The notes beneath the pieces were generated by a model. The model did not search any database. It saw only the letters and a program-made list of their open reading frames with translations, and had not been told where the DNA came from. The position numbers were made by a program, and so were the translations under genes. From the NCBI RefSeq assembly GCF_018616375.1, contig NZ_JAEQBB010000010.1, positions 1-64,000 on the forward strand: a stretch of 64,000 bases of DNA. Reading direction: 5' to 3'. The stretch's first letter is position 1; every line of letters begins with the position of its first letter. Below, piece after piece: positions 5,785-55,045 of the stretch. The stretch is from Exiguobacterium sp. J17977 (GTDB taxonomy: Bacteria > Bacillota > Bacilli > Exiguobacteriales > Exiguobacteriaceae).

Positions 5785-7746
5785 TCACTCCTTTTTCTTC
5801 ATATTGTCAGGTTTAGGCGGCGAGGTCGGATAGATTCGTCGCGACTCTTCCTGGTGCTGGCTATGACGGTGCGTCTGATTTTCACGCACCTGTTCGATGA
5901 CTTCGGTCTCGACGTCGAGGACGGTGTCCTGATGAATGGTCCGTCGGGCGCGTCCTTGATGTTTCGCTGTTGCCGTATCACTCGAGTCCGTCGTAGAGGA
6001 CGAAGATGAGGATGAGCCGTTTGAGTGTGGTGCCTCATGAGGTGTCGGTGAAGTCGCGTCGTTTCTGGCTACCAATTCACTGTGACGATGGTCTGGTCCG
6101 GATGCTGCATCGATGGACCCGGTGACCGATTCGAGAGGCGATGAAGCTGAGCTTGGAGAATGGCCAGAGATCGAATGATTATGAATCGATTCCGGTCTTT
6201 GTGTCTCCGATGACGTAGTTTGATGGTCGGGTCCACGTCCGGGATTCGATTCCGGGTTCGTCGCATGGATTGATTCGGGAGACGTGCGGCCTGACGCTTC
6301 CTTCCCGTGTGGAGAGCCTTGCGCTTCCGGTTCTGATTCTTGACCACTGATTGGTTGCGCAACGTCCTTCGGAATTGTCGGTTTGTCTTGATTAGGTTGA
6401 GTACGACTTTCGGTTTGATTCGCTTGAGCGATACTGTCTGGATCGTGTTGTCTCTCCGTGTCCGCTCGCTGTGAATCTTGGGTCGCCACACTAAGCGGTG
6501 AATCACTTTGCGGCATGGCATTCGAATCCATCCGAGCCGTCGCGGCCTCATGGAGCGAGGGCATCTTTGGTGCGCCTTGTGTGGCACGCGCGACCTTCGA
6601 GACCGCATGGGCACCTGCCGAGGTCACGCCTTTCCCGGCGGCATAGGCGCCGAGCGCGACACCCCAGCCCCGTTTTAGCCCCGCATCGATTCCGAACAGC
6701 CGCTCGACCACGTTCGGTCCATCAATCAAGGCGACCGAGAAGGCGATGAGGGCGATCAGGTAGGCGAATTCGTCCAAAGTCTCTGCGAGATAGGCGGTCC
6801 CGATCGTGTACAACTTGATGGAGACGAAGATCAGGATGATCACGAGGAACGTGTTCAAAATGCTCTGAATGACCTTCTTTGTCTTTTGGCCACTGTGCAG
6901 ATCGGCCGGTGCGACGAGGATCGCCAAGACATAGTTGAAGGCAAGCTCGAACGAGAGACGCGCCAGTTTGTAGGCGATCGAGAACAGCGTGAAGCCCATG
7001 ATCCCGAGCGTCACGAAGATGGTCAACCAGTTCGGCTGATAGCGGTAGTAATACTGGTTGTTCCATTCGACGCCACTTTGATCGAGTTTACCGAGACTTG
7101 TCTCTTTTCCGTTCCATAGAATATAGGACCCGGCCAACTTGTTTCCGGTTGCCGATAAGTCATAGTTGTTCTTGTCGAAAATCTCGTTGATTCGGATGTT
7201 ATCAATCAACTCAGTCGGAATGGCATTTAATGATTCGCCTGTATTAGCATCAAAATTCTTCGAATCGTGCTCAATCAAATCATGTACATTCCGCTTTAAG
7301 ATACTCTCAGATAATGAGGCTTCTCCGTCGTAAAGCGAGTCTGTTCCGATTTCTGCGATTGCCTCATCAGAAAATTCCTGAATTCGGCTCATAGTTGGTG
7401 AAAGTAAACCTAAGATCAATAGTGTGATGAACAGGTTGATCAAAAAACTCTCACGTTCAAATTTCTTTTGGAAAATCAACAAGTACCCAGTGAACAAGAA
7501 ACTTCCTGCTAAAAGAACATACAAAAAAGGTTGAATCGTAAGAACGAACTCAACCACTTGTTCATTATTGAAGAATGTATTGGTTAATAGGATTTGATTC
7601 GTGATTGATTCAAGGCCGTCAATCAAGACTGATAGTCCTCTGACAAGAATCCATCCCATTGAGCGCAGTGCGTCATTGACCATACTACTGATTTGGAGTA
7701 CATCTTCGTATTCCTGTAATTTGGTGATTAAATCGGAATCAGCCAT
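5785..7746 (-). CDS. VirB6/TrsL-like polytopic channel protein with low-complexity tail
   Basis: The N-terminal 400 residues contain several hydrophobic helices (around 75-95, 105-130, 250-285, 290-320 and 325-350), consistent with the VirB6/TrbL class that forms the inner-membrane pore. The last 250 residues are hydrophilic and low in complexity, dominated by S, Q, P, H, E and T, and probably unstructured. Base composition follows the domain boundary: the N-terminal third is AT-richer than the central channel part. Members of the family often have variable, disordered C-termini, so the tail is unusual only in length. It lies between the lipoprotein and VirB3-like genes. Confidence 0.78.
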   Translation of the reverse strand: MADSDLITKLQEYEDVLQISSMVNDALRSMGWILVRGLSVLIDGLESITNQILLTNTFFNNEQVVEFVLTIQPFLYVLLAGSFLFTGYLLIFQKKFERESFLINLFITLLILGLLSPTMSRIQEFSDEAIAEIGTDSLYDGEASLSESILKRNVHDLIEHDSKNFDANTGESLNAIPTELIDNIRINEIFDKNNYDLSATGNKLAGSYILWNGKETSLGKLDQSGVEWNNQYYYRYQPNWLTIFVTLGIMGFTLFSIAYKLARLSFELAFNYVLAILVAPADLHSGQKTKKVIQSILNTFLVIILIFVSIKLYTIGTAYLAETLDEFAYLIALIAFSVALIDGPNVVERLFGIDAGLKRGWGVALGAYAAGKGVTSAGAHAVSKVARATQGAPKMPSLHEAATARMDSNAMPQSDSPLSVATQDSQRADTERQHDPDSIAQANQTESRTQPNQDKPTIPKDVAQPISGQESEPEAQGSPHGKEASGRTSPESIHATNPESNPGRGPDHQTTSSETQRPESIHNHSISGHSPSSASSPLESVTGSIDAASGPDHRHSELVARNDATSPTPHEAPHSNGSSSSSSSTTDSSDTATAKHQGRARRTIHQDTVLDVETEVIEQVRENQTHRHSQHQEESRRIYPTSPPKPDNMKKKE

Positions 7747-17127: not shown

Positions 17128-17940
17128 TTACAATGAGTAAATTTGTTTTTGAATATCCCATAAGCTTTTGGCTTTTATGACTATTCCTAGATTAATCTCG
17201 ATTTGAAATTTACTAATTCTATTACTTTGACTATCATCCAACTCCATTATTTCTTTAATCATCACTCCTTTTAAAATCCCCAAAAATAAAGGCTTTCGGT
17301 CTCTTTCTTTTGTATTTGTAAAATTTAAGAAAACCGGAGACCCGCTCGATCCTCCCGTTATGTACATATCAATCAGGCACTCAGGTAAACCTTCAAAATC
17401 TACTCTTGAATGTGTCGCGGTAATTCCACGTCTAAAAATTGGAAGGTTATTTTTTTCATCATACAAACCATTGGGATATCCCACCATTAAAACATCTTCT
17501 ACGTAATTTAATTCTTCTAACTGGCTCTCATCAGGAATATGTTTGATACTTAAAGGCTCAAAATATGCGTCAAAAGGCTCGAAATATGGGTTCGGTGATG
17601 AAATATAATTTAGTGCGTTTGTAATTTTAATTGCACACAAATCAATATCCGGATCACTATGCATAATCACATGATTTTTTAAAGGATAATTAAGTTTAAA
17701 TACTTCAGACTTTGTACCCCAGGATTGATTGTAATGTTCCTTCGAAAAAATAATCTTTATATTATTTCCGTTTTCTATTACGTGCTTGTTAGTGACAATT
17801 GTTATATATGGTGTTTCACTATCTGCAGATATTTTGTGTACTTTTTTATTGAGAAAGGAAAAGAAAAATCCAGTACCGACTAATCCATTGTCACATTCAA
17901 TACGAATCACTGAGTAAACGGCAAAGTTAAATATATCCAT
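17128..17940 (-). CDS. Trypsin-like serine protease, cytoplasmic
   Basis: This 270-residue protein has a complete chymotrypsin-fold triad. His53 is in TNKHVIENG, Asp100 in DPDIDLCAIK and Ser201 in GGSSGSPV, with the expected spacing. It has no signal peptide or membrane segment, so it probably acts inside the cell. It starts at ATG 17940 behind AAAAGGAGAATC. Stand-alone trypsin-like domains of this type occur in bacterial defence and regulated-proteolysis loci, where a partner triggers cleavage. The partner may be one of the two upstream-strand neighbours, but no fusion or overlap proves it. It is the best-defined enzyme of this cargo block. Confidence 0.8.
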   Translation of the reverse strand: MDIFNFAVYSVIRIECDNGLVGTGFFFSFLNKKVHKISADSETPYITIVTNKHVIENGNNIKIIFSKEHYNQSWGTKSEVFKLNYPLKNHVIMHSDPDIDLCAIKITNALNYISSPNPYFEPFDAYFEPLSIKHIPDESQLEELNYVEDVLMVGYPNGLYDEKNNLPIFRRGITATHSRVDFEGLPECLIDMYITGGSSGSPVFLNFTNTKERDRKPLFLGILKGVMIKEIMELDDSQSNRISKFQIEINLGIVIKAKSLWDIQKQIYSL

Positions 17941-19917: not shown

Positions 19918-20499
19918 ATGATTGTAAAGTATCAAATGTCATATGAAGATTATATGGCGTTACAAAGAGATTCTTTAAAAAGAACAAAATTTCATAGAAT
20001 AAAATCTAGTATTCTCTTTATATTGCTAACAGCAATGGTGTTTTTATTTGGAATTGTGCTCTCTATTCTTGTTTTGCCTCAATCATCGTACTTAATGTCA
20101 TTTAAATTGTACCAACTTCTCCCGATATTTATAGGAATCCTGCTTGCCTTGGTAATGATGCGTTATGTTAAAAAGTTTTATGCTTTTGCTACAATTGCAA
20201 AACTAAAATTCATGCTTAGAAACGATAAACGTTGGCCTCATGACATCACCTTGAATATACATGAAATCGGTATCGATTTAACATATTCTCGGGAGAATTC
20301 AGATACAACGACTAAAGTAGTCTGGGACTCGGTTAAAATAATCGGTCAAGACAAAAATCATCTTTTTTTGTATTATGAAGAAACCGAAGCAATTATTATA
20401 CCTACAAGTCATAATGTATTAGAAAAAGAACAACACGAAATACTCCGAAAACTACTTAAGCAACATTTAAATTATGAGCTCCAAAATAATAGTGACTAA
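19918..20499 (+). CDS. YcxB-like membrane protein
   Basis: This 193-residue protein has two adjacent membrane helices (about 30-55 and 64-84) and a C-terminal soluble domain (about 95-190). The soluble part shows the YcxB-like pattern: a strand pair, then VVWDSVKIIGQDKNHLFLYY and an isoleucine-rich IIIPTSH segment. YcxB-like proteins are widespread in Bacillota, and their role is unclear. It starts at ATG 19918 behind AGAGGAAT and is followed by a good terminator. It stands alone, with no functional neighbour; it may be a passenger of the surrounding mobile DNA. Confidence 0.68.
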   Translation: MIVKYQMSYEDYMALQRDSLKRTKFHRIKSSILFILLTAMVFLFGIVLSILVLPQSSYLMSFKLYQLLPIFIGILLALVMMRYVKKFYAFATIAKLKFMLRNDKRWPHDITLNIHEIGIDLTYSRENSDTTTKVVWDSVKIIGQDKNHLFLYYEETEAIIIPTSHNVLEKEQHEILRKLLKQHLNYELQNNSD

Positions 20500-21257: not shown

Positions 21258-22244
21258 TTAAATTAATTTCCCGTATTCTTCTTTAACATAACTCCTTCGG
21301 TTGTTAAAAATCACTTCCCACCAGCCTTCTACACTTCCGGAAATCTCAAATTTATCTCCCTTCATTGTCTTACCCATTTTTTTAGATTTATCTGTTGTTT
21401 TTTCATAAATGTAAGTAAAATTATCTAAATTGTGAATTTCAATAGTGCCTAGAGATTTTATAGAATTTGAGTCGTTGGAATCCATTGAATTCAAAGCTAC
21501 TCGATCAATATACAATAGTGCTCCAATTTGAAGATTGTGAGGTATAACTTCTGGATTATTCATCTCCAGTTGTTTTACGGGCACATTGTATTTTTGACTT
21601 ATAGACCAAAGGGTATCTCCTGAAACAATTTTGTAAGTTCGATTCTTTGTTTGAGTTGTTTGCAACTCAGTCTTAGTCTTAAGAACAAGGCTGTAATGTT
21701 TAGCCACTGCATCTGCCACAAGAGCTCCTGCAGTTCTCAGTTTTTCCTTCTTTCTAAGAACCTGAATATCAGTAGTAGAATCCATAAATCCGCCTTCAAT
21801 AAGAACAGCTGGCATGTGATGATGGTTAATAACTTGCCAGTTTGTGTGTTTAATCCCCCTATCTCTAAGGCCATAACCTTTAACAAGAGCTGGATGAACC
21901 GCATTAGCAAGAGCCAATGAAGCTGCATTTGGATTTACTTTTGTAAATGTCTCTGTTCCTCCATGTGAGCCCCACACGCCTAAATAAGCATTATGATGAA
22001 ATGAGATGTATGCTTTACCTCCGAGATTAACCGCCTTTTTAACTCGTTCTGCTAACGCAACATCGACAACGCCTGTTCTATCGTCTACTCGCTCGACTTT
22101 GGCGTCTTTATATTGAATCATTCGTGCTTCAAACCCACTAGCAATTTCATTGTTAAATGTCCATTCTCTCTCTCCATCCGGAGATCTTTTCCCCGGGGTA
22201 CTTATGGCATGACCCGCATCTATGATAAAAAGTATATCGGACAT
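21258..22244 (-). CDS. Endolysin: N-acetylmuramoyl-L-alanine amidase with LysM and SH3-like domains
   Basis: ATG 22244 is preferred because AAAGGAGG lies upstream. The N-terminal domain (about 1-180) is an Amidase_3 zinc amidase: metal ligands and catalysis are in DAGHA, the FHHNAY segment and IEGGFMDS. A LysM domain follows (about 205-250, YKIVSGDTLWSISQKYNV) and an SH3-like C-terminus (about 268-328). There is no signal peptide, as for phage lysins released through a holin. The holin-like gene ends 12 bp upstream, and three related SH3-like proteins precede that on the same strand. Confidence 0.9.
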   Translation of the reverse strand: MSDILFIIDAGHAISTPGKRSPDGEREWTFNNEIASGFEARMIQYKDAKVERVDDRTGVVDVALAERVKKAVNLGGKAYISFHHNAYLGVWGSHGGTETFTKVNPNAASLALANAVHPALVKGYGLRDRGIKHTNWQVINHHHMPAVLIEGGFMDSTTDIQVLRKKEKLRTAGALVADAVAKHYSLVLKTKTELQTTQTKNRTYKIVSGDTLWSISQKYNVPVKQLEMNNPEVIPHNLQIGALLYIDRVALNSMDSNDSNSIKSLGTIEIHNLDNFTYIYEKTTDKSKKMGKTMKGDKFEISGSVEGWWEVIFNNRRSYVKEEYGKLI

Positions 22245-22259
22245 CACTATATCCTCCTT

Positions 22260-22490
22260 TCATTTTTTATCTTTGAATTCATGAAGTTCTTGACGTATCT
22301 CTGTAACATCTTCCGTCAGACTTCCATAACTAGTCACTAATTTTGAAAATTCAAATTTCATATCATTTAAGAATCCATACAGTTTCTCTTCACGCCTTGA
22401 AGAAGTATTCAAAACATAAATTAAGAGCCAGATAAATAGCCCTACGAAGATACTGTCCTTCATTCCAAACTCTAAAAGCAATAGTTCCAA
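22260..22490 (-). CDS. BhlA/UviB-family holin-like protein
   Basis: This 76-residue protein has one N-terminal membrane helix (about 12-28, IFVGLFIWLLIYVL), then a charged helix (SSRREEKLYGFLNDM) and a coiled tail with EIRQEL. This is the standard pattern of BhlA/UviB proteins, known from Bacillus prophages and bacteriocin plasmids. The likely start is TTG 22490, with GAGGAGAGGG just upstream. It would permeabilise the membrane so that the adjacent amidase reaches the wall. UviB-type genes also accompany bacteriocins, which makes the next three upstream genes candidates for released cargo. Confidence 0.82.
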   Translation of the reverse strand: MELLLLEFGMKDSIFVGLFIWLLIYVLNTSSRREEKLYGFLNDMKFEFSKLVTSYGSLTEDVTEIRQELHEFKDKK

Positions 22491-22589
22491 ATTCCCTCTC
22501 CTCTCAAATGTGCCTTTCTTAATTCAAATCTTATTTTAAATTTAAATAGAAAAAGAAAAAGACGGGATTAAATCCCGTCTATCCTATAT

Positions 22590-23108
22590 TTAATTTTTAA
22601 TAGATGGCGTTGTATAATAGCCCGCTCGAATCCCCGTCTCTGCCCACGTGTTTGATGAGAAGTATTTCCACTGTGTAGCGCCTGCCCGACGATATCCCGT
22701 AATGTACAAGCGATCTGGATAAGTAGCTCCAGAAGTCGAGGTTCCATCTGTTCGGATTTCTGATCCTGTTGGAAGCGTCTCAATCAAAGTAGTTCCACTG
22801 TAAACCCGTACCTGTCTTCGAGTTTCAAAGATCAGTTGAGACGAAGAAATAACTCTTTTCGCAAACTTCGAGCCATACGCCAAAGATGTTCCAATTTTGT
22901 TAGAGCTATATGCCTCTTCATAACAAGGAATAAATCCTTCTGTAGTGTATGCATAAATCACTGAATACTTGATGTAATTCTGATCGGTATGAAGATAACT
23001 TGATCTGGCAAACGTTTCACCTACGCCAAAGTATCCGACTTTTTTGTTATTTAAATTGTAAAGATCAATTTGAGATGACAATGAAGTAATTTTATGAAGG
23101 GTCGGCAT
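22590..23108 (-). CDS. Tandem paralogue 3 of an SH3-like two-domain protein
   Basis: This 172-residue protein is the last of three tandem paralogues. Its N-terminal domain (about 1-85) is diverged and SH3-like (LYNLNNKKVGYFGVGETF). Its C-terminal domain (about 86-172) is nearly identical to those of its neighbours: ETRRQVRVYSGTTLIETLPT, then GSEIRTDGT, YPDRLYITGYRRAG and a WAETGI ending. It has no signal peptide and no membrane segment. It lies 100 bp before the holin gene, with a small space that contains the end of the repeat. The family is not recognised; wall binding through SH3-like folds is my inference. Confidence 0.62.
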   Translation of the reverse strand: MPTLHKITSLSSQIDLYNLNNKKVGYFGVGETFARSSYLHTDQNYIKYSVIYAYTTEGFIPCYEEAYSSNKIGTSLAYGSKFAKRVISSSQLIFETRRQVRVYSGTTLIETLPTGSEIRTDGTSTSGATYPDRLYITGYRRAGATQWKYFSSNTWAETGIRAGYYTTPSIKN

Positions 23109-23132
23109 TAAAATTCACTCTCCTATTTTTAA

Positions 23133-23654
23133 TTAGTTTTTAATTGATGGCCATGTGTAATAGCCCGCTCGAATTCCTGTCTCTGCCCACGTATTTGAAG
23201 AAAAATATTTCCACTGTGTAGCGCCTGCTCGACGATATCCTGTGATATATAAGCGGTCTGGGTAAGTAGAGCCAGCAGTCGAAGTGCCATCTGTTCGGAT
23301 TTCCGATCCTGTTGTAAGCGTCTCGATTAAAGTAGTCCCACTATATACTCGAACTTGTCTTCGTGTTTCAAAAATGAGTTGAGAAGGCGACTGAACACTT
23401 TTAGCATTCGACTGTCCATACGCTAGTTCATGAGTCCATTTTCCAGGGTTATGTCCTGGGTTAAAGCACACTGTGAAACCTTTAGTAGTATAGGCGTAAA
23501 GCATACGACTGTCATAATTCCAGTAATCTCTAGCAATACCAGCATAGGCAAGTGTTTCACCTTGACCGATATAGCCAATCGTATTTCCATTAAGATCTTG
23601 AAGCCTTGGATTATCTGCAACACTAGTAACTTTCCATAATACGGGGTTTGCCAT
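23133..23654 (-). CDS. Tandem paralogue 2 of an SH3-like two-domain protein
   Basis: This protein starts at ATG 23654 (MANPVLWKVT) behind AGGAGAGTG. It has 173 residues. The N-terminal half contains LNGNTIGYIGQGETLAYAGI and is only loosely similar to its neighbours. The C-terminal half repeats the ETRRQVRVYSG/EIRTDGT/YITGYRRAG pattern with very high identity. The contrast of a conserved C-terminus and variable N-terminus suggests a shared anchor with specialised heads. Spacing to both neighbours is under 30 bp, so all three are probably on one transcript with the holin and amidase. Confidence 0.62.
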   Translation of the reverse strand: MANPVLWKVTSVADNPRLQDLNGNTIGYIGQGETLAYAGIARDYWNYDSRMLYAYTTKGFTVCFNPGHNPGKWTHELAYGQSNAKSVQSPSQLIFETRRQVRVYSGTTLIETLTTGSEIRTDGTSTAGSTYPDRLYITGYRRAGATQWKYFSSNTWAETGIRAGYYTWPSIKN

Positions 23655-23671
23655 AATAAACACTCTCCTAA

Positions 23672-24208
23672 TTAGTTTTTAATTGATGGCCATGTATAAT
23701 AACCAGCTTTGATACCCGTTTCTGCCCACGTGTTTGATGAGAAGTATTTCCATTGCGTTGCCCCCGCTCTTTTGTACCCCGTGATATATAAACGATCCGG
23801 TTGAGAATAACCAGCTGTCGAAGTACCATCTGTTCGAATTTCTGAACCTGTTGGAAGGGTTTCAATTAAAGTTGTTCCGTTATAAACTCGCACTTGTCTC
23901 CGCGTTTCAAAAATAATTTGAGATGAAGAAATGACTCTCTTAGCGTTTGAAGCACCATAAGCAAGTTCTTTTTCTGCTTTAAAAAGATTTCTTACCGGAC
24001 AAGCATAGGTAGCTCGCCATCCTACTGTTGTATAAGATGCAACTTTAAAATAATCTGTGATGGGATAATGCTTATCGCTAAAGTACTCAATACCATACTC
24101 AGTATAGGTTTCACCAGGAGATAAATAACCTACTTTCACATAATCTGGCGTTGTATATAGATCGCAATTACTAGTCCCTTTCAACTTCATTAATACTGGA
24201 TTTGCCAT
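23672..24208 (-). CDS. Tandem paralogue 1 of an SH3-like two-domain protein
   Basis: This protein starts at ATG 24208 (MANPVLMKLKG) behind the same AGGAGAGTG leader as paralogue 2. It has 178 residues. The N-terminal part has LYTTPDYVKVGYLSPGETYT, which has the strand/turn pattern of a bacterial SH3 domain. The C-terminal domain is the shared one, with small changes (VYNGTTL, YKRAG). It is the first intact gene of the cassette; a decayed fourth copy lies upstream. Without a leader peptide, release would depend on the cassette's holin and amidase. Confidence 0.62.
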   Translation of the reverse strand: MANPVLMKLKGTSNCDLYTTPDYVKVGYLSPGETYTEYGIEYFSDKHYPITDYFKVASYTTVGWRATYACPVRNLFKAEKELAYGASNAKRVISSSQIIFETRRQVRVYNGTTLIETLPTGSEIRTDGTSTAGYSQPDRLYITGYKRAGATQWKYFSSNTWAETGIKAGYYTWPSIKN

Positions 24209-24225
24209 AATAAACACTCTCCTAA

Positions 24226-24425
24226 TTAGTTTTTAATTGATGGCCATTTGTAATAGCCTGTTCTAAATCCTGTCTCTGCCTACGTGTTTGAAGAAAATAT
24301 TCCCACATCGTTTCCTCTAGCTAAAACTTCATAACTTACAACCCCCTCAACTCCTTTATTTAAAAAATTGTGTAACTAGATAAACACTTCACCTCTTTTC
24401 GTGTTTTAAATAGTAAGGAGACATA
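24226..24425 (-). pseudogene. Decayed fourth copy of the tandem SH3-like gene
   Basis: The minus strand reads LLFKTRKEVKCLSSYT, then in another frame SSNT, a stop, AETGFRTGYYKWPSIKN. This matches the C-terminal domain of the three intact paralogues with frameshifts, a stop and an internal deletion. The array was once longer and is recombining or decaying from its upstream end. Confidence 0.75.
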
Positions 24426-24477
24426 AATTAATAATTCTAGATTTGTTATGTTACTCCAATACTATCTATGATTAAGT

Positions 24478-24550
24478 GTTCCTTGAGAGATTTGAACTCC
24501 CGACCGTTAGTTTAGAAGACTAATGCTCTATCCAACTGAGCTAAAGGAAC
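24478..24550 (-). tRNA. tRNA-Arg(UCU)
   Basis: The minus strand folds into a full cloverleaf of 73 nt. The acceptor GTTCCTT pairs with AAGGAAC, and the D arm is GCTC/GAGC. The anticodon stem TTAGT/ACTAA surrounds loop CTTCTAA with anticodon TCT, and the T arm is GGGAG-TTCAAAT-CTCTC. The 3' CCA is not encoded. It reads AGA, a codon favoured in the AT-rich cargo genes here. Confidence 0.95.
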
Positions 24551-25409: not shown

Positions 25410-26477
25410 ATGACACTACCGCATCAAAAAAAAATAATAAAGAGTTCCTCATCAGCAACTGTAAACGAATTAAAACAGAGTCTTGATTATCAAAAAGTAC
25501 ATCTTAAGGATCGAATAGACGTTGTTGAAAAAATGTTGAATCAAAGTGACTTTTACGAAGACTACTTTTCAACCCTTTTTAAATCAAATATTACTTCGCA
25601 AGACCCTTTGTCTGAGGAAGTAAATGTATGCCGCTCTTTGTCGCGAATGGCCGACTATATTCTTAGCTCTAAAGAAGTTAAGGATGAAAAGGACGCTAAA
25701 AAAAACAACTATGTATTCTACACAGACAATCAGTACTTTCGCCGGAAAATGGAAAGGGAAGTTAATTTTTCTGAACTAGGCGGATCAACATCATTCAATA
25801 ACGAAGAGGACTTGATTCATCTATTGAAATGCTCTGAGAAGAACTATAAAGCGGAAAAGGTTCAAAAGATTGTTTCGGAGGATTTAGAACGGACAGATTT
25901 TCTTGGGCAAATTTTAAAAGATTATAAACAATTAAATGATTATCTAAGTAATGAGTTGAAATCAAAGAGTAATAACTACAATCGATATCTCTTATCCAGA
26001 ATGAAAGGACAAACGGCACGCGATATGATTTACTGCAAAGATACGCTTTCTGGTGTATTTGCATACAATCCAAAGAACGTTTCTGAATCTACTAAACCCG
26101 ATTACGATGTTTTTGATTTTACAGATAAAGATCACTTATTGGGGAAGTCAATCGCTGCTGAAGAGTCTAGACCTGCGCTAAAAGTGAAAGGGCTTTTATA
26201 TTTTGAACCACAACCGTTGAGTAATGGAGATTTTGCTCTTGTTCTGCATGACTTGAATGAAACTATTAAAAAGGCTGGATTAACAAATCGAGAAAAATTT
26301 GTTCTTAGTAAAGTGCGAGATGGTGCTTCCAATACCTCTATTGCAGATTCTCTAGAAATTAACAAGATGGAAATAACTCGAGTTATCCAACGAATTGCAA
26401 AGAAAGTCATCAAAGTTGGCAATAAATACGACAAACGTAATGGGTCTGATAAAGAGAGCCATCTAGAATCTAATTAA
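25410..26477 (+). CDS. Putative transcription regulator with C-terminal sigma4/LuxR-type HTH
   Basis: This 355-residue protein is mainly helical and charged for its first 280 residues. It ends with LTNREKFVLSKVRDGASNTS followed by IADSLEINKMEITRVIQRIA, a clear LuxR/sigma-region-4 type helix-turn-helix (about 288-340). The N-terminal part has no receiver or ligand domain that I recognise. It starts at ATG 25410 behind TGGAGGA. Another sigma-like gene lies 3.2 kb downstream. The two may form a phage-derived regulatory pair controlling this AT-rich block; the block includes the lysis cassette and ThyX-like gene. That connection is inference. Confidence 0.6.
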   Translation: MTLPHQKKIIKSSSSATVNELKQSLDYQKVHLKDRIDVVEKMLNQSDFYEDYFSTLFKSNITSQDPLSEEVNVCRSLSRMADYILSSKEVKDEKDAKKNNYVFYTDNQYFRRKMEREVNFSELGGSTSFNNEEDLIHLLKCSEKNYKAEKVQKIVSEDLERTDFLGQILKDYKQLNDYLSNELKSKSNNYNRYLLSRMKGQTARDMIYCKDTLSGVFAYNPKNVSESTKPDYDVFDFTDKDHLLGKSIAAEESRPALKVKGLLYFEPQPLSNGDFALVLHDLNETIKKAGLTNREKFVLSKVRDGASNTSIADSLEINKMEITRVIQRIAKKVIKVGNKYDKRNGSDKESHLESN

Positions 26478-26965: not shown

Positions 26966-27167
26966 GGCTAAGTTTTAGAATTGAACTATACTACACAACG
27001 TTTAAATTCATCTAAACCATAATTGAAATTACTAATTACTTAAGAGTTTTCAAATTGGATATTTCATGTTTTTCCCCACGAATCTAAAGTAAGTTATTTA
27101 CGTTTATATTAGTAAAGATATAAATATCTAGTAACATAAATCATATTACTTGAAGGAGTTTTATATT

Positions 27168-28052
27168 ATGTCAAAAAATATTAATCTTATACCTGTCACC
27201 GACTCTTCGAAGATTTTATCTGATGAGAAAACCGAAATCGAAATTATGAATGATCTTGAAAATATTAAAGTTTCATTAATTGATCACACACCATGGCCTC
27301 ACATTGTTCAATATTTACCTAACTACGTAAATACCAAAGTATCTGCTGATTCAAACCTTGCCTATCCACCAAGCCAAAATGCAGATAATCTTGAAAAAGC
27401 GTTTAAATCCAAGACACTTCCATCAATTCTGGAAACGATCCGACTTACCTTTCGGGTTAAAGGCATTAGTGTGCAAGACGCGCTACGTTTAATTCGTCAC
27501 CATACTTTATCCTTCTCCGCACAATGTACAGATGATCATTTATCACCTGACTTTAAAACCGTTGTTCCTGAGTCGATTGAAAATTCACCAAAATTCTATA
27601 AACGTTATAAAGATTTGACTCAACTGTGTCATGAACTCTATGCTGACATGATTGAATCTAAAAAGATTTCAACCACGGACGCTCGTCTTATTTTAAACAA
27701 AAATCATGACAATTTTTATCACGTGAGCTGTAACTTCAAAGATTTGCTTGGATTTGTTGAACAACATATTGATCAACAAAATCAATCGAAATCAATTAAC
27801 ATTCTTGCTTATCAGATGTGGCTTGCGGTTTGTCAGCAATACCCAATTGCCCATTTAAATCTTGTAGACTTTGAACAACCTTCACATTGCAACAGTGAAA
27901 ATTTAAATGGCACAAATCCACCTAATGAAAAAACGAAGTTTGAATCAATGCTTACAGAATATAAAGGAGACCTGGTTTTCTTTTCTGAAACAGCAACCGA
28001 CCATATCGAAATGATTCGCAAGGGTGAAATCTTTACCACACAACCCGAATGA
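27168..28052 (+). CDS. Divergent ThyX-like (flavin-dependent thymidylate synthase) protein
   Basis: The start is set at ATG 27168, 10 bases after AAGGAG. The 294-residue protein shows the ThyX order: a central RHHTLSFSAQCTD (110-122) aligned to the signature RHRxxSxNxxSxR, then ISTTDARLILNKN, and the FVEQHIDQQNQ helix. ThyX makes dTMP from dUMP using FAD, NADPH and methylene-THF. Here several signature residues differ: the second Arg is His, the Ser near the flavin is Cys, and the last Arg is Asp. It may use another substrate or be inactive. Stand-alone thyX variants are common on phages. No dCTP/dUTP enzyme lies nearby. Confidence 0.62.
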   Translation: MSKNINLIPVTDSSKILSDEKTEIEIMNDLENIKVSLIDHTPWPHIVQYLPNYVNTKVSADSNLAYPPSQNADNLEKAFKSKTLPSILETIRLTFRVKGISVQDALRLIRHHTLSFSAQCTDDHLSPDFKTVVPESIENSPKFYKRYKDLTQLCHELYADMIESKKISTTDARLILNKNHDNFYHVSCNFKDLLGFVEQHIDQQNQSKSINILAYQMWLAVCQQYPIAHLNLVDFEQPSHCNSENLNGTNPPNEKTKFESMLTEYKGDLVFFSETATDHIEMIRKGEIFTTQPE

Positions 28053-29683: not shown

Positions 29684-30283
29684 ATGACAGAAACGAAGTT
29701 AATCCTATTTTCTGACGGTACTTCTAAAGAACTTACATTTGAGGAAGTACGAAAATTGCACCGACCTATGGCGATTAAAGAAATGCGCAAAGCCAATTCA
29801 AAGTCGCTTTATAATCCAATTGAAGAAGAAGACTTTATGCAGGAAATGGAATTAGAAATTTGGAGAGCGTTTGAACAGTACGACCCAGATCTAAATTATT
29901 GTTTCAGCACATATCTCCAATACAAACTGTTAAAAGGAGTTCGAAATGTAACTTATTCTCGATATGCAAAAAAAAACCAGCATAATGGGTTGTTCTCAAT
30001 GAATGCTACACAAAATGAAAATGATTTAAGATTAGAAGATATGTTTGTCTCTGAAGAATCAGCATCAAATAATTTTTTTTTCAAAGAATTATTTGAAATC
30101 ATACAAAAAAATGTTCCTTCTGATAGTGAGAAAGAGTTATTACTCATTCTACTAAATAAGAAAGAACATTCAGTCCAAGACTATGCAACAAGACATAGAA
30201 TTACTCGACAGGCTGCCAACCAACGAGTAGTAAAGCTTCGAAAAAAACTTCAAAAAATAATTAAAAACGAATACCTTACCTAA
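29684..30283 (+). CDS. Sigma-70-like RNA polymerase sigma factor, phage/plasmid type
   Basis: This 199-residue protein has region 2 features (about 55-110: EEDFMQEMELEIWRAFEQYD, then FSTYLQYKLLKGVR) and a region 4 helix-turn-helix (about 165-195: HSVQDYATRHRITRQAANQR). The layout matches small alternative sigma factors that redirect RNA polymerase to a subset of promoters. It starts at ATG 29684 behind TTGGGGGAA and is closed by a strong terminator. No anti-sigma gene is adjacent. The only other transcription protein nearby is the HTH gene at 25.4 kb. Its promoters are unknown; genes of this AT-rich block are the natural candidates. Confidence 0.78.
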   Translation: MTETKLILFSDGTSKELTFEEVRKLHRPMAIKEMRKANSKSLYNPIEEEDFMQEMELEIWRAFEQYDPDLNYCFSTYLQYKLLKGVRNVTYSRYAKKNQHNGLFSMNATQNENDLRLEDMFVSEESASNNFFFKELFEIIQKNVPSDSEKELLLILLNKKEHSVQDYATRHRITRQAANQRVVKLRKKLQKIIKNEYLT

Positions 30284-31995: not shown

Positions 31996-32364
31996 ATGAA
32001 AGTGAAAATCCGGGAAGATGCCCCAGATTATTATTCTATAATGTCTGCTGACTTCGGCTGGGATACGGGTTGGGAGAATATCTTCTCGTACTTAAAAGGG
32101 AGATGGGTAGAGGTAGATACAAATCATTTACACAAGTATGAATACTATCTAAAACCTATAAAAGGACTATTTGACGAGCCTTTGAGGGTAGATGAAGATT
32201 TTATAGAGGATATTATGTGCGATGTGAGATACGGAAAGGCAAGATGCGATTTTTGTAACTCTATATCTTTGAATAGAAAAATATGTACTAATTGTGGCCG
32301 GAAAGATTATTTAAATCCTTTTTTTGAAGATGATGAGGAAAAGGCGCATAAAAATTGTAAATAA
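31996..32364 (+). CDS. Unknown small protein with C-terminal zinc ribbon
   Basis: This 122-residue acidic protein starts at ATG 31996 behind GTGGAGGTG. Its last third has two CxxC pairs (CDFCNS and CTNCGRK, about 88-106), a short zinc ribbon. The first 80 residues contain many aromatic and acidic residues (WDTGWENIFSYLKGRW) and no recognised domain. It stands alone between gene-poor stretches and is followed by a very strong terminator 235 bp on. The zinc ribbon may bind nucleic acid or a partner protein; the function is unknown. Confidence 0.62.
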   Translation: MKVKIREDAPDYYSIMSADFGWDTGWENIFSYLKGRWVEVDTNHLHKYEYYLKPIKGLFDEPLRVDEDFIEDIMCDVRYGKARCDFCNSISLNRKICTNCGRKDYLNPFFEDDEEKAHKNCK

Positions 32365-34008: not shown

Positions 34009-35820
34009 TTAGTCATTTTTTTCTAATGTTCTATTAAGGTAACTTAACATGAACTCTTTTTCTTCTTCTATTTCATAATCGTCAGGACTCCAAAGTTTTA
34101 AAACTTCTTCACTTGCACCTGAAAATTTTGAAAATAATATGTCCGCGCTAAAATAAAATGGAGAATGTGAAACTTCAGTATCATGGTTTAAATTTCTTAC
34201 TATGAATATATCTGCCTCTTTTACATCATGGTTGTATCTGGGTAAAATAGAAAACAATTCATTGTAATACGCACTGTCGTCAACGATAACAATTTTATTA
34301 AGATGAAAATAATTTTCTTTAGTGTAATAATTGTGAACTAACTTATTTATAAATAACTCACATTCATGTTTTTCTTCAATATAACGGTCTTCGTACTCAA
34401 AGATCAAATTATCCAAAGTGGATTCTCTCGTCCAAAAAAACATAAATCGAAATTCAATATCAAATTGTTCATTCAAAAAATTATATAAACGGTTCAAAAC
34501 ATTATTGTAATCAAAATTTAAGTTCAATCCTTTATAAAAAAATATCAACTCATTAATTTTCTTTTCGAAATAATTCATATTAATTATGACTAGATTTTCA
34601 TAATCATCTAAAGTTGTATTATTAAAGTAGTTTTCAATTTCCTTAAAGTCCACTTTTACTGTCTCGAATGGAAAATCAAAATCATCATAACTATAATCAA
34701 CATCTTCAAAATTTCCAGTTGAGTCTATTAAATCTTGTCGCGATTTATAATCACTTTCTAAACCCAACACCCGATAGACATCAGGTAAAAAATCATTTTC
34801 ATTCTTTTTATGAGCTAACAAATAATATTCTATAAAATCTGGATCTAAAAACATTTCCCACTTCACCTCAATATTACTTCTGCGAGCAAGTAATTTAACA
34901 AAGTGAGTCTGAGTAACTCTTTGAGTATCATAAAAATGAATTACGTTATAAAAAAAACTATAGAAAATTATATACTTCGGTATATGCGAAGACATATTTT
35001 TAATATTGTATCTTTTCAATTTTCTTATTTCATGCTCACTGTATTTTTTATCAGAATCAGGTAGTCTAAACATTTTCGTTTGTTGAGAATAATCAGACCC
35101 TGTGATAAGTGTATTTTTTCTAGTAAGAACGTTTATTAATTTTTTATCTTTCAAATTTTCATCGTAAAAAAAGTAAAGAAAATCATCTGCCCACTCTATT
35201 GTTTCATGGATACAGACTCCCGTTATTGTCCCTCCTACTCCATAATCTAAAAAATTATTTTTTAATGATATTATTTGAAATAATGATGCTGTCATACTTA
35301 GCTTCATTCGAACAATATCTTCTAATGCATCATAATTATAAAGTGAAAGAGTTCCAACAAAATTATTTAATGAAGTATCTAATCCTTCTATTTTTTTCCC
35401 ACTTCCAATGGATATGAATGTATCAATTTCTTGATGCGTTTTGCTATTTATGTAAAATAATTTGTTGGTTGAATTATGAGAAACTAAAAGTACTTCTTGA
35501 TTAGAATTTTCAGAACTGCTCAAGTAATTCTTTATGTATTGAATTATCTCATTTAATTGCAAAGTATCGCTCATCAAGTCCATTTGTTTTTTTAATTGAT
35601 AAAATACTTCGAGATTACCTGCAAAAGCCATCGCATAATTATTTATCACATGAATTTTCACATCAGTTTCTTCTATAAAATAAGAGTTATAGAGTCCATA
35701 ATTTTCTCCCATACTAGAGCATTCTTTTTCGTCTACTTCATTACTTACAAGGGATGAGGAAACAGAATCTGCAATCATATACACATCATTTTTATCTTTC
35801 CAAGCAAAACAATAAGTCAT
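34009..35820 (-). CDS. Large protein with N-terminal proteasome/HslV-like Ntn-hydrolase domain
   Basis: After removal of Met, Thr1 is followed by a strand and then IADS, placing Asp at position 17, exactly as in proteasome beta and HslV subunits. A lysine follows in DVKIHVI (the Lys33 equivalent), then AMAFAGN and SIGSGKKIEG, matching the AG and GSG landmarks. The domain takes about the first 210 residues of 603. The remaining 390 residues are helical, acidic and unrecognised, and may recruit substrates or regulate. ATG 35820 sits behind AAAGGAGAAAC. No ATPase partner is adjacent. Its setting in AT-rich cargo suggests a defence or counter-defence protease, which is inference. Confidence 0.6.
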   Translation of the reverse strand: MTYCFAWKDKNDVYMIADSVSSSLVSNEVDEKECSSMGENYGLYNSYFIEETDVKIHVINNYAMAFAGNLEVFYQLKKQMDLMSDTLQLNEIIQYIKNYLSSSENSNQEVLLVSHNSTNKLFYINSKTHQEIDTFISIGSGKKIEGLDTSLNNFVGTLSLYNYDALEDIVRMKLSMTASLFQIISLKNNFLDYGVGGTITGVCIHETIEWADDFLYFFYDENLKDKKLINVLTRKNTLITGSDYSQQTKMFRLPDSDKKYSEHEIRKLKRYNIKNMSSHIPKYIIFYSFFYNVIHFYDTQRVTQTHFVKLLARRSNIEVKWEMFLDPDFIEYYLLAHKKNENDFLPDVYRVLGLESDYKSRQDLIDSTGNFEDVDYSYDDFDFPFETVKVDFKEIENYFNNTTLDDYENLVIINMNYFEKKINELIFFYKGLNLNFDYNNVLNRLYNFLNEQFDIEFRFMFFWTRESTLDNLIFEYEDRYIEEKHECELFINKLVHNYYTKENYFHLNKIVIVDDSAYYNELFSILPRYNHDVKEADIFIVRNLNHDTEVSHSPFYFSADILFSKFSGASEEVLKLWSPDDYEIEEEKEFMLSYLNRTLEKND

Positions 35821-44075: not shown

Positions 44076-46289
44076 TTAACCCCCAATATCAGGTCCTTCA
44101 GGCAGTTCTCCATTTATCAAGAAGTATACTACCGCTGCAGCACTACCAATAGCCCCGATAGCTACTAACTTAGGTAAAGCAAACACTAACAATGCAGCAG
44201 TACCTATAACTACAAGCCCTGTCCCAGCTGTTACAAGAAGTTCATTCCAAATAGGAGATGGTGCAGGAGATGGTGTTCCTCCTGGTTGATCATTTCTAAG
44301 AATTAGTGTGACAGTAATCTCGAGTAACATTTTATCTTTTGTCATACTAACTTCCACTTCTTCACTAAACACTTTAAGATCAATGGTTAATTCATTTCCT
44401 ACAGCAGTTAAAGAAGCAGCTAAAAATCCATTATTTGCTGAAAGAGCGATGTTTTTCAAAAAATTGTCGTAATCCTCAATTTCTTGTACTGAAAGTTTAG
44501 AGGCAGTTCCTTCTAGAAGTGTCTTAGCGTCTACACTTGTTTGACCGTTCGTATTTGTTAATTGGACAAAAGAAAGTTCCGGAAGCCCTGGCATCACAAC
44601 TGCTGCGTCGGCTTTTACGAATACATCGAGGTTTGGAGTTCCTAGAACTTGATATTGCTGATTAAATTTAAACTCAATATCAAATAAATTAATTGGACCT
44701 TCATGTAAAAGCGGGATTTGAGAAGCAATTTCTTTAAACTTATTATATAGTGCTGTGTATGCCATTGAATCTTCATTAGGATCAATTTCACGTGGCCCTA
44801 CAGATGATTGACCGCTGTCTCTACCAGAATTAATATTATTATCGATTTCAATAAATCCATCCCCACTGCCTAGTGAGATAGTAGAAATCTGATCAAACGC
44901 CCAGTTCTTTGGAAGTGGATACCCTAAGTTTCCACTGAAGCCGTTTGACATTCCACTTACGAAACTTGTTACTGCGAATCCTCTATCAGAAACACCACTA
45001 CACACACTACGAGGACCGTAAACTCCTACGCGATATCTCCCACCGAGTTCTTGTAGTTTTTGATTGATTCCTTCAAAGTGTGGAATGATATTGTCAGTGA
45101 TTTGATAACCTAAAGCATCAAAATCGACTGCGAAATAGATGATAGTATCTTTTTTAAAACCATAACTGCTAGCTGCTTTATGGGCTTCTGTAGCTGCAGT
45201 CATCCCTTGAGATTTACTGAAGTCTTCAACCCGTGATCCCCGAGTTTGGAAAATTGGGAAGACAGTCATTCCAGCATCAAAAATTGTGTCCAGCTCTCCG
45301 GGTTGGATTTTTTTATTTAGTCCTCCAGGAACATTAGATAGATAACGACCGACTGTTTTATAGCCAGCATTGACTAATGTCTGAGCACGAGCTGGCGTTA
45401 CTTCGGTGATACAATCAGAGGCCGTTCCTCGTCGAGTAGGGTCTCCAGAACTCACAAGTAAAGAAAGCCAAGTTTGGCGACCAACTGAGCCATTTGGTAC
45501 CAATCCTACAAATTCTTGAAATTCAAATACTTTTGATTGTACTGATGAAGTAAATGAACTGCCAAACGAACCAGTATCAAAATTGTTTACATACATCGCG
45601 TATTGAAGGAATTTTACAAATACGCCAGAGTCTCCGAGCGAAAGATTTGGAAGACGATCTCTTGTTGTCGGACCGACTGAACCAGTTTGTTGATACGCAG
45701 GAATTCCTTGTTCCGTTTGAATGCCATAAATTAAAGCTCGATTAGTCCCACGCTGATAATGGCCATCTGCCGGTTGAATACCTGATGTAGTGTAATAATG
45801 GTAGTTTAAATCTCGTTGCATTTGCTGGATGCGAGGATCTCCTCCAAAAGTGAGACGATAAGCGTCCATTGTTAGGAGGGCTTTAAAAATATAATCATAC
45901 ACTTTTCCGTCCCGTACTGGTAATCCTGCCTCTGTTTGAAGATTCAGAATAGCTTGTTGTGTTTGCTCCGTAAATTGTCCGTTGAATGCACCAGGATTAT
46001 AGCCCTTGCACCAGCATGCACCTTGCAAAATTCGAACAATTCGCTGCCCTTTAGCATCCGTTGGAACTCGTCCAAGTTCCATTTCTCCCCATTGCTTATA
46101 TTGAGAAGCCGTCATAGGACCAAAACTATCACTAGGTGATGTAATACCAAGTTCAATCTGTAAAGCTCGAGTGAGGGAATACATTGTCGACCAACCCGTT
46201 TTTCCGGTTTCGGGTGCTACTGTATAGCCAGCCCGGCCTCCGTATGTGTTATTTAAATACTCTTGGACCTGTAATACCATTGGATCCAT
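44076..46289 (-). CDS. Peptidoglycan-binding glycoside-hydrolase-like protein with C-terminal membrane helices
   Basis: This 737-residue protein starts at ATG 46289 behind AAGGAGGAAT. The first 280 residues carry about three to four peptidoglycan-binding repeats (for example NGQFTEQTQQAILNLQTEAG and GSVGRQTWLSLL). Residues about 290-500 match the DUF1906/Rv2525c-like glycoside-hydrolase domain (TVGRYLSN, FAVDFDALGYQ, YGPRSVCSGV). The next part (about 510-665) is unknown and strand-rich. The end has two hydrophobic helices (about 680-725). It has no signal peptide, so export would need a holin or a dedicated system. A holin gene faces away upstream. Confidence 0.82.
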   Translation of the reverse strand: MDPMVLQVQEYLNNTYGGRAGYTVAPETGKTGWSTMYSLTRALQIELGITSPSDSFGPMTASQYKQWGEMELGRVPTDAKGQRIVRILQGACWCKGYNPGAFNGQFTEQTQQAILNLQTEAGLPVRDGKVYDYIFKALLTMDAYRLTFGGDPRIQQMQRDLNYHYYTTSGIQPADGHYQRGTNRALIYGIQTEQGIPAYQQTGSVGPTTRDRLPNLSLGDSGVFVKFLQYAMYVNNFDTGSFGSSFTSSVQSKVFEFQEFVGLVPNGSVGRQTWLSLLVSSGDPTRRGTASDCITEVTPARAQTLVNAGYKTVGRYLSNVPGGLNKKIQPGELDTIFDAGMTVFPIFQTRGSRVEDFSKSQGMTAATEAHKAASSYGFKKDTIIYFAVDFDALGYQITDNIIPHFEGINQKLQELGGRYRVGVYGPRSVCSGVSDRGFAVTSFVSGMSNGFSGNLGYPLPKNWAFDQISTISLGSGDGFIEIDNNINSGRDSGQSSVGPREIDPNEDSMAYTALYNKFKEIASQIPLLHEGPINLFDIEFKFNQQYQVLGTPNLDVFVKADAAVVMPGLPELSFVQLTNTNGQTSVDAKTLLEGTASKLSVQEIEDYDNFLKNIALSANNGFLAASLTAVGNELTIDLKVFSEEVEVSMTKDKMLLEITVTLILRNDQPGGTPSPAPSPIWNELLVTAGTGLVVIGTAALLVFALPKLVAIGAIGSAAAVVYFLINGELPEGPDIGG

Positions 46290-53167: not shown

Positions 53168-55045
53168 ATGTCTCTGATGCTTTCTGCTGTTCGTGTTCGT
53201 AATTTTAGATCTTTAGCGTTTGCTGATTTTTCTTGTAACTCTTCTTCCGGTACTGTATTAATTGGGGCCAACAACGTTGGTAAAACAGCTTTTTTGTCTG
53301 CTCTAAGGTTAGTTTTCGATCCTAGATTTCCTGTTTCTTCTGAAGATGTTTATCGTGCTCCAGGTGACCTTGATGCAGAGATGGAATCTAGAGAGGCCAT
53401 CGTTGATGTTTTAATTACCCCTACTAACTTGTCGGAGGATGGAGCATTAGAGTTTACACCAGAGTGGCAATTACATTTTGGAAGGTTTATTTCTTTAGAT
53501 GAAAATTCAAATCAATCTGTTTCGATTCGAGCGAAAATTGTTTTCAATCGTTCTAAGGGTGAGTATGAAGTAGAGAGAAGAATTCTTTTAGATTGGCCGG
53601 ATTCAAAAAATCTTAATGATTATGTAGATTATAATAAAATTTTACCTAGAGAATCTTTTTTCGAACCATTACCGGTTTTTTATCTGGATGCAAGAAGAGA
53701 TATAGTTGCTGACATGAGAGATAAGTTTTCTTATTTCGCAAGGTTAGTTAAAGATATAAAAATTGATCAGTCTTTAGTGTTAGATTTTGAAAAAGAACTG
53801 GAAAGTATTAATTCTAAAATAGTTGATGAAAGTGATATTCTTAAACATTTAACAGATAAGTTGGGAATGATTTCTAAAACTTTGGATAGTGAAGATTCAA
53901 AAATTTTGATTCATCCGGTTACTCAAAAATTGAGTGAGTTAGGAAAAAATCTTACTATTAACTTTCAGGATGAGCACTCAGATGCTTTTTCAATGAGTAA
54001 CCATGGTATGGGTACAAGAAGTTGGATTACCTTTTTAACACTTTTTTCATATGTTGATTGGCAAATCGGTCTTAGACAACAAGCAGATAAATGTTATTAT
54101 CCGATTGTGTTATTAGAAGAACCAGAAGCCCATTTGCATCCCAATTCACAAAGAAATATTTATAAACAAATGAAGTCATTAAGCGGACAAATTTTTGTTA
54201 GTACACACTCGCCTAGTATAGTTTCTCAGACTGATTTAATTGAGATTCTTTTTTTAACTAAAAAATATGGTAAGACTACAGTGAAGAGTGTAAATGATAA
54301 TTTAATGGGAGACGAATTAAGAAAAATCAAACAAGAAATTCTTAAGTCCAGAGGAGAACTGTTATTTTCTGAAGCACTTATTTTATGTGAAGGAGAAACA
54401 GAAGAACAATCTATCCCTACATTCTTTAAAGAAAAATTTAAAAAAGAGATTTATGAATGTGGTTTTAATGTTATATCAGTAAATGGATATGGAAAATATA
54501 AGCCTTTTTTGAAATTTGCAAAAGTATTTGATATACCTGTTTATATTTTTAGTGACGGAGAAAAAATAGTAAAGGAATCTATAGAGAACGTTATTGAAGA
54601 AGTGTTTGGAGAGTCGTCTGATGATCAAAAAGATAAAACAGTTTTTCTTCCTATGGGAGACAATTTTGAAAGGTATTTAGTTTCGGAGAACTATGACAAA
54701 GAATTAGTTCAAGCTCTTGAAGCGGAATTAGGTGAAGGAGTAATTGAAAATTATATTAAAACTAAAAACGGTACTTTTATTAAAAGGAAGCCAACCAAAG
54801 ATACTTGTTCATGTTGCGGACAAAAAATTTTTTCGGATAGAGTAAGAGATTATCCAGAGAACGATGCTGGTTATAAAAAAGCTTTATTGGATTGTTTAAA
54901 AGATAACAAAACAGCGTATTCATTTACTATCGCGGATAATATTATTTTAAAAAACAAAGATACAGGACGTGCTATTCCTAATAAACTACTAGAGCTGTTT
55001 GTGATAATAAACAATCATCATGAAATTCTTAAGGAGAAAATATGA
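53168..55045 (+). CDS. gajA: Gabija GajA: OLD-family ATPase and TOPRIM nuclease
   Basis: The N-terminal ABC-type ATPase of this 625-residue protein has Walker A GANNVGKT (about 33-40), Walker B IVLLEEPEAHLHP (about 315-327) and the STHSPSIVS H-loop. The TOPRIM domain begins with LILCEGETEE (about 405) and contains FSDGE. This is the OLD class 2 layout. Together with the UvrD-like helicase that overlaps its stop by 4 bp, it forms Gabija, an antiphage complex that degrades or nicks phage DNA when nucleotide pools fall. A CxxC pair (about residue 544) is a small extra feature. It starts at ATG 53168 behind GGGAGTG. Confidence 0.93.
   Translation: MSLMLSAVRVRNFRSLAFADFSCNSSSGTVLIGANNVGKTAFLSALRLVFDPRFPVSSEDVYRAPGDLDAEMESREAIVDVLITPTNLSEDGALEFTPEWQLHFGRFISLDENSNQSVSIRAKIVFNRSKGEYEVERRILLDWPDSKNLNDYVDYNKILPRESFFEPLPVFYLDARRDIVADMRDKFSYFARLVKDIKIDQSLVLDFEKELESINSKIVDESDILKHLTDKLGMISKTLDSEDSKILIHPVTQKLSELGKNLTINFQDEHSDAFSMSNHGMGTRSWITFLTLFSYVDWQIGLRQQADKCYYPIVLLEEPEAHLHPNSQRNIYKQMKSLSGQIFVSTHSPSIVSQTDLIEILFLTKKYGKTTVKSVNDNLMGDELRKIKQEILKSRGELLFSEALILCEGETEEQSIPTFFKEKFKKEIYECGFNVISVNGYGKYKPFLKFAKVFDIPVYIFSDGEKIVKESIENVIEEVFGESSDDQKDKTVFLPMGDNFERYLVSENYDKELVQALEAELGEGVIENYIKTKNGTFIKRKPTKDTCSCCGQKIFSDRVRDYPENDAGYKKALLDCLKDNKTAYSFTIADNIILKNKDTGRAIPNKLLELFVIINNHHEILKEKI

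Follow-up and report, generated by a model that had tools for sequence, protein, structure and literature searches.

We analyzed a gene cassette of Exiguobacterium sp. J17977, a bacterium of soil and water, that lies within a 64,000-nucleotide stretch of DNA (contig NZ_JAEQBB010000010.1, positions 1 to 64,000; hereafter the window). Running from 24303 to 21258 on the minus strand, the cassette comprises a broken copy of a paralogous gene, three intact paralogues, a terminator, a holin gene, and an amidase gene:

24229-24303 (24226..24303 including the stop), minus strand: remnant of a fourth paralogue, its last 25 codons, with one internal in-frame TAG
23672..24217, minus strand: paralogue A, leaderless and predicted to be tandem-SH3b-like, 181 codons, likely start ATG at 24208 (MANPVLMK...), from the open reading frame, the alignment, and profile relatives
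23133..23663, minus strand: paralogue B, 176 codons, likely start ATG at 23654, from the open reading frame and the alignment
22590..23108, minus strand: paralogue C, 172 codons (MPTLHK...), from the open reading frame and the alignment
22560..22580, minus strand: intrinsic terminator between paralogue C and the holin, 9-bp stem with 5 G-C pairs, T-run, z -2.98
22260..22490, minus strand: BhlA/UviB-type holin, 76 amino acids, Pfam Holin_BhlA PF10960 (E 3.4e-7, above the cut-off)
21258..22247, minus strand: endolysin, 329 amino acids, with Amidase_3 (2.6e-28), LysM, and a weak SH3_3 match

The gaps between the paralogues are short, and each paralogue has the same ribosome-binding context. A preliminary description of this DNA had reported three paralogues on one strand followed by a holin and an amidase, and the open reading frames together with the Pfam Holin_BhlA and Amidase_3 matches confirmed this arrangement, to which the broken fourth copy can be added. 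With the terminator at 22580-22560 separating paralogue C from the holin, transcription as one operon is not shown, and the paralogues and the lysis genes may be separate units.

Divergence and predicted fold of the paralogues

By alignment, paralogues A-C are 65-67% identical overall. The last 85 residues are 89-94% identical among them compared to 37-42% for the N-terminal half, in agreement with the variable N-terminus and conserved C-terminus described previously. Across the last 85 residues, there are 5-9 amino acid differences versus 32-39 synonymous codon differences, giving a ratio of nonsynonymous to synonymous divergence (dN/dS) of about 0.04-0.05, and in the N-terminal halves dN is 0.65-0.75 and dS is saturated. 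Purifying selection acts strongly on the C-terminal half, whereas the N-terminal half has been free to diverge, a contrast far beyond chance similarity. The paralogues showed neither a signal peptide nor a transmembrane stretch (maximum hydropathy over 19 residues 0.49-0.71), consistent with their having been described as leaderless, and no convincing internal repeat was found between their N- and C-domains.

The paralogues had also been described as belonging to no named family, and this held for Pfam, PHROGs, NCBIfam, and PADLOC, none of which produced a family match. The best match to a PHROG tail family reached just E 0.23, and no Pfam SH3 profile matched the window paralogues, while a relative from another genome (G138, discussed below) scored 13.9 bits, under the cut-off. 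Searches of the paralogues with tblastn returned no phage or plasmid record within the E limits used, paralogue A reaching E 4 at best against phages.

To compare folds, we used an AlphaFold2 model built from five sequences (mean predicted local distance difference test score, pLDDT, 69), which superseded a first-stage model with a pLDDT of 55. It displays two all-beta domains, the C-domain being the best modeled. Its best Foldseek neighbors in the PDB include the SH3b-containing proteins Trichomonas NlpC2, dipeptidyl-peptidase VI, LytB, PlySb, the wall-binding domain of phage 2638A, and lysostaphin, and those in the viral set include endolysins. The top BFVD neighbor, A0A3G3BWX4 (187 amino acids), could not be assigned to any gene of the phage BcoS-136 record and was set aside. 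All of the fold-search E-values are >0.001 (best 2.3e-2 in PDB), and a fold of two bacterial SH3 (SH3b) domains is therefore likely on the basis of the model, but not proven. Thus, fold comparison lends support to the earlier SH3-like reading, whereas Pfam does not. In contrast to the SH3b wall-binding proteins that neighbor the model, such as lysostaphin, PlySb, the phage 2638A endolysin, and NlpC/P60 proteins, the paralogues have no attached enzyme domain and no Pfam SH3 match above the cut-off. Across the ten family sequences of alignment A7, only E36, G88, G136, and G172 are invariant in addition to the start, and no catalytic residues are kept, which argues against the paralogues being enzymes.

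Remains of a GR1-like phage

Six genes in the window match Geobacillus phage GR1 (OK896991) at 39-66% identity, with order and strands kept. These include the holin (about 66-67% identical) and the amidase (50%), and GR1 is the sole source of a holin match among 50,697 phage records. The remaining four lie on the opposite strand, beyond the paralogues, and are listed here together with a tRNA gene:

25410..26477, plus strand: phage sigma factor with a LuxR-type helix-turn-helix, phrog_5767, 49% to GR1
27150..28052, plus strand: flavin-dependent thymidylate synthase ThyX, Pfam Thy1, 52% to GR1
29684..30283, plus strand: sigma-70 family factor of phage type, 55% to GR1
31996..32364, plus strand: hypothetical phage protein, phrog_28968, 39% to a GR1 hypothetical protein
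24476..24550, minus strand: tRNA-Arg (TCT), inside the phage remnant, where it separates the cassette from the divergent phage genes

When five blocks were placed in random cyclic order and strand, the GR1 order and strands arose in 0.3% of trials. This collinearity indicates that, very probably, a GR1-like phage decayed within an Exiguobacterium plasmid and the cassette is its lysis end, at the tail/lysis junction. As in GR1, a BhlA holin followed by an amidase on the late strand is opposed by a divergent LuxR-type sigma factor, ThyX, a sigma-70 factor, and a hypothetical gene in the same order. In contrast with the window, GR1 has complete head and tail genes and a second holin after the amidase, and a glycoside hydrolase, its last tail-region gene, sits before the BhlA holin where the window has the paralogues. 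No match to GR1-type head, tail, or packaging genes was found in the window between 13 and 37.6 kb, which implies a remnant rather than a phage, and only 6 of the 106 annotated GR1 features have a detectable counterpart. Judging from the comparison with GR1, the structural genes were very probably lost from the interval that separates the broken fourth paralogue from the sigma gene at 25410, the genes from 25410 onward are part of the same remnant as the cassette, and the holin and amidase are the ordinary lysis pair of the decayed phage. The tRNA-Arg gene at 24476-24550 could be either phage-borne or an old attachment site.

The setting of the cassette is ordinary phage decay; what is new, as far as the searched libraries go, is the protein family. 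The statement that this composition matches no described system is mistaken or at least incomplete, as phage ancestry explains it, both through the collinearity with GR1 and through two relatives that lie in the lysis regions of tail-bearing prophages. Overall, what the preliminary description had observed is confirmed with additions, while its interpretation is partly supported.

Relatives and possible roles of the paralogues

Profile searches of 1,775 genomes, repeats counted, detected relatives of the paralogues in six other genomes, one of which also has close copies in IMG/VR phages, but none in 37 other genomes of the Exiguobacterium family. Six IMG/VR contigs carry relatives, and loci L051 and L054 are those that were read. 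The weakest profile links, from searches of about 400 genomes, were to G536 (E 3e-4) and G924 (E 1.5e-3). Both were secured by profile-profile comparison with hhalign (A1-A6 2e-10, A2-A6 2.4e-13, A5-A6 2.5e-9), although A1 against A5 was not significant directly, so that link is transitive. These profile links indicate that the family can be traced from Bacilli to Clostridia. Pattern scans of IMG/VR with single proteins and the A1-A3 profiles returned no match, and neither did a scan with the L048 query. We rejected a 26-residue match in a Bacteroidetes metagenome-assembled genome from the genome-contig scan, as its locus had no A2 profile match, and set aside matches in G003 and G976 (E 0.005-0.007), where the reading frame contained stops or the match fell within a longer one.

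The surroundings of these relatives vary. In G138 (L062), the relative closes a prophage lysis module composed of holin-like genes, an Amidase_3 gene, a lipoprotein gene, and then the relative, and the tail genes of this prophage (L062, L065) are 31-49% identical to those of GR1, in order. In G1017 (L048), a minor tail protein (phrog_3432, 1.5e-70) is followed by the relative, an opposite-strand lipoprotein gene, a holin, and an NlpC/P60 enzyme, and in G536 (L041) a sigma factor, a Phage_holin_4_1 holin, the relative, and a convergent lipoprotein gene occur in a row. The relatives in G924 (L049) and IMG/VR L051 lie between terminase and portal in clostridial prophages, that in IMG/VR L054 lies upstream of terminase, and that in G932 (L047) lies at a contig end with a lipoprotein gene upstream. 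Positions within phage genomes thus differ (L048, L049/L051, L054, L062), and both GR1 and the other Exiguobacterium-family genomes searched are without the family, as would be expected of phage accessory (moron) genes. The family is found beside holins in four separate loci, and because the relatives in L041, L048, and L062 are independent, the link with holins is real and no single-locus accident. Downstream of the G138 relative, a leaderless protein with two PG_binding domains and an EndoU nuclease domain (L062:6560-7720) is followed by a gene for a 155-amino-acid protein (6087-6554), and the two could form a toxin-immunity pair.

Based on the data presented above, the paralogues are most likely an undescribed phage accessory family with two SH3b-like domains rather than a free-standing new system. 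We favor the explanation, with a probability of roughly 0.58, that they are accessory proteins of phages, produced late, set free by lysis, and able to bind host walls. They would be made with or near the late genes, remain cytoplasmic for want of a signal peptide, and escape when the holin and amidase breach the cell. The constant C-terminal domain, which suggests one shared partner, either wall or virion, would then bind a common wall or virion element, and the diversified N-terminal domain, which suggests varied targets, would set specificity. The benefit might be masking of receptors on debris and neighboring cells, or assistance to contact between virion and wall. For release at lysis together with wall binding, taken by themselves, we consider the odds to be about even. 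Lysogenic-conversion (moron) genes occur near the lysis modules of Gram-positive prophages, and the accessory genes beside lysis genes in G138 and G1017 resemble them in this respect. However, classic moron examples usually carry Sec signal peptides, whereas proteins of the paralogue family do not.

Several results weigh against this explanation. A strong terminator parts the paralogues from the holin, the fold-search E-values are weak, GR1 itself carries no copy of the family, and neither PHROGs nor the named phages yielded a relative. Moreover, the relative in G157 (L032), 37% identical to paralogue A in the alignment, is a lone chromosomal gene without phage or lysis neighbors, and that in G536 has no recognized phage structural genes within 20 kb, implying that the family is not confined to phages.

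We regard as unlikely the alternative that the paralogues are leaderless effectors, either antibacterial or aimed at the wall, which the BhlA holin and amidase export under sigma control, the phage part having been kept for this use. Such export has been proposed for the UviA-UviB-Bcn5 system of Clostridium perfringens (pIP404 type). Bcn5 loci always combine an amidase and a BhlA holin with a sigma factor, and Bcn5 bears SH3b domains (PMC9527704). The surviving phage parts alongside the paralogues are of the same types (BhlA holin, N-acetylmuramoyl-L-alanine amidase, and sigma factors), and a leaderless protein, here with a predicted SH3b-like fold, and a plasmid location are also common to both. 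The row of genes in G536, with no phage structural genes seen nearby, is in line with this idea, as is the leaderless PG_binding-EndoU nuclease gene downstream of the G138 relative. The bacteriocin idea has more in its favor than phage context by itself would lead one to expect. However, Bcn5 is a 96 kDa protein with an M14 peptidase and usually a hydrophobic C-terminus, while the window proteins are ~20 kDa, have neither (no M14 match in Pfam), show no toxin or catalytic motif, and occur in three diverged copies within a GR1-like phage remnant. The two sigma genes near the cassette are both of GR1 phage type and are accounted for by the GR1 collinearity, and two of the relatives' locations adjoin terminase or portal rather than a holin. 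An immunity gene, which the preliminary description had proposed looking for, is not shown in the window, where neither a lipoprotein pattern nor an immunity candidate was found near the paralogues. Lipoprotein genes, possibly for immunity, do adjoin four relatives (L041:10318-10779, L047:894-1733, L048:2317-2862, and L062:9435-10205), but they share little past the signal region and are not clearly related to one another, and are thus a lead only. The G536 relative, although not the window, also resembles TcdE/TcdR-type holin-linked secretion in Clostridioides in the consecutive placement of genes for a sigma factor, a holin, and a leaderless protein, but shows neither toxin homology nor signs of regulated secretion. 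A broader version of this proposal seems to us similarly improbable. It posits a new family of leaderless effectors that bind walls, are released by holin and endolysin, and have sigma factors as their switch; phages would have spread the family, with domestication in some cases (G536), N-terminal diversification would serve the range of targets, and the neighboring lipoproteins would be candidates for immunity.

A role in the virion, as accessory proteins of the tail tip or as decoration proteins, is equally doubtful. Under this reading, the constant C-domain would dock to the particle and host recognition would fall to the variable N-domain. Such a division of labor fits the evolution of the two domains, the relative in L048 comes after a minor tail protein, and the window paralogues sit at the position of the last GR1 tail-region gene. 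However, relatives also occur before terminase, in the terminase-portal gap, after the amidase, and outside phages, and both GR1 and the G138 prophage possess tail genes, yet GR1 lacks the family. By position, a virion role suits G1017 and the window, but none of the other loci. The preliminary description had raised known tail or baseplate proteins in a phage context as the opposing outcome; the phage context was found, whereas a match to known tail proteins was not. Finally, it is very unlikely that the cassette is a neutral relic whose expression has been lost, as the scarcity of GR1 counterparts and the already broken copy might indicate, given that three paralogues, the holin, and the amidase are intact, although the purifying-selection signature in the C-domain is historical and cannot date such a loss.

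These data add a protein family absent from every profile library used. If its members bind walls or kill, they would be a small new case of leaderless proteins that depend on a holin for release, a subject for which the debate now centers mostly on large clostridial toxins and Bcn5. If they instead serve in virions or in masking, they would account for a class of unannotated late phage genes.

Plasmid setting of the cassette

The window is contig 27 within a 2.94 Mb genome, and its plasmid matches are exclusively to Exiguobacterium, which indicates that this contig is a plasmid of that genus. Three blocks (1-13.7 kb, about 18.2-19.2 kb, and 36.0-43.2 kb) are kept in other Exiguobacterium plasmids, and VirB4/VirD4-type conjugation genes and ParA genes are among these common blocks. 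The cassette lies in the variable segment between the second and third blocks, where the E. mexicanum plasmid NZ_CP040675 has other genes.

Several other genes in the window were also observed. On the minus strand, 44076-46289 encodes a leaderless 737-amino-acid protein with PG_binding_1 repeats, an Rv2525c-like glycoside hydrolase-like domain, Ybfg_C, and a hydrophobic C-terminus. It is 36% identical to the protein at L041:12627-14927, 2.4 kb from the G536 relative, and is possibly another released wall-binding protein on the plasmid of the cassette. A Gabija-like pair on the plus strand (53168-56892) consists of GajA (PADLOC 2e-191) followed by a UvrD-like helicase, the latter assigned by reading alone, and a trypsin-like protease on the minus strand (17128-17940) matches the candidate defense family PDC-S45 (4e-73). 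A 603-amino-acid protein (34009-35820, minus strand) has a weak N-terminal match to the HslV peptidase family (phrog_1040, 1.8e-4) and no Pfam family. Closer to the cassette, a YcxB-like membrane protein (19918-20499, plus strand), slightly under the Pfam cut-off, is encoded upstream of an apparent transposase remnant at ~20.6-21.1 kb.

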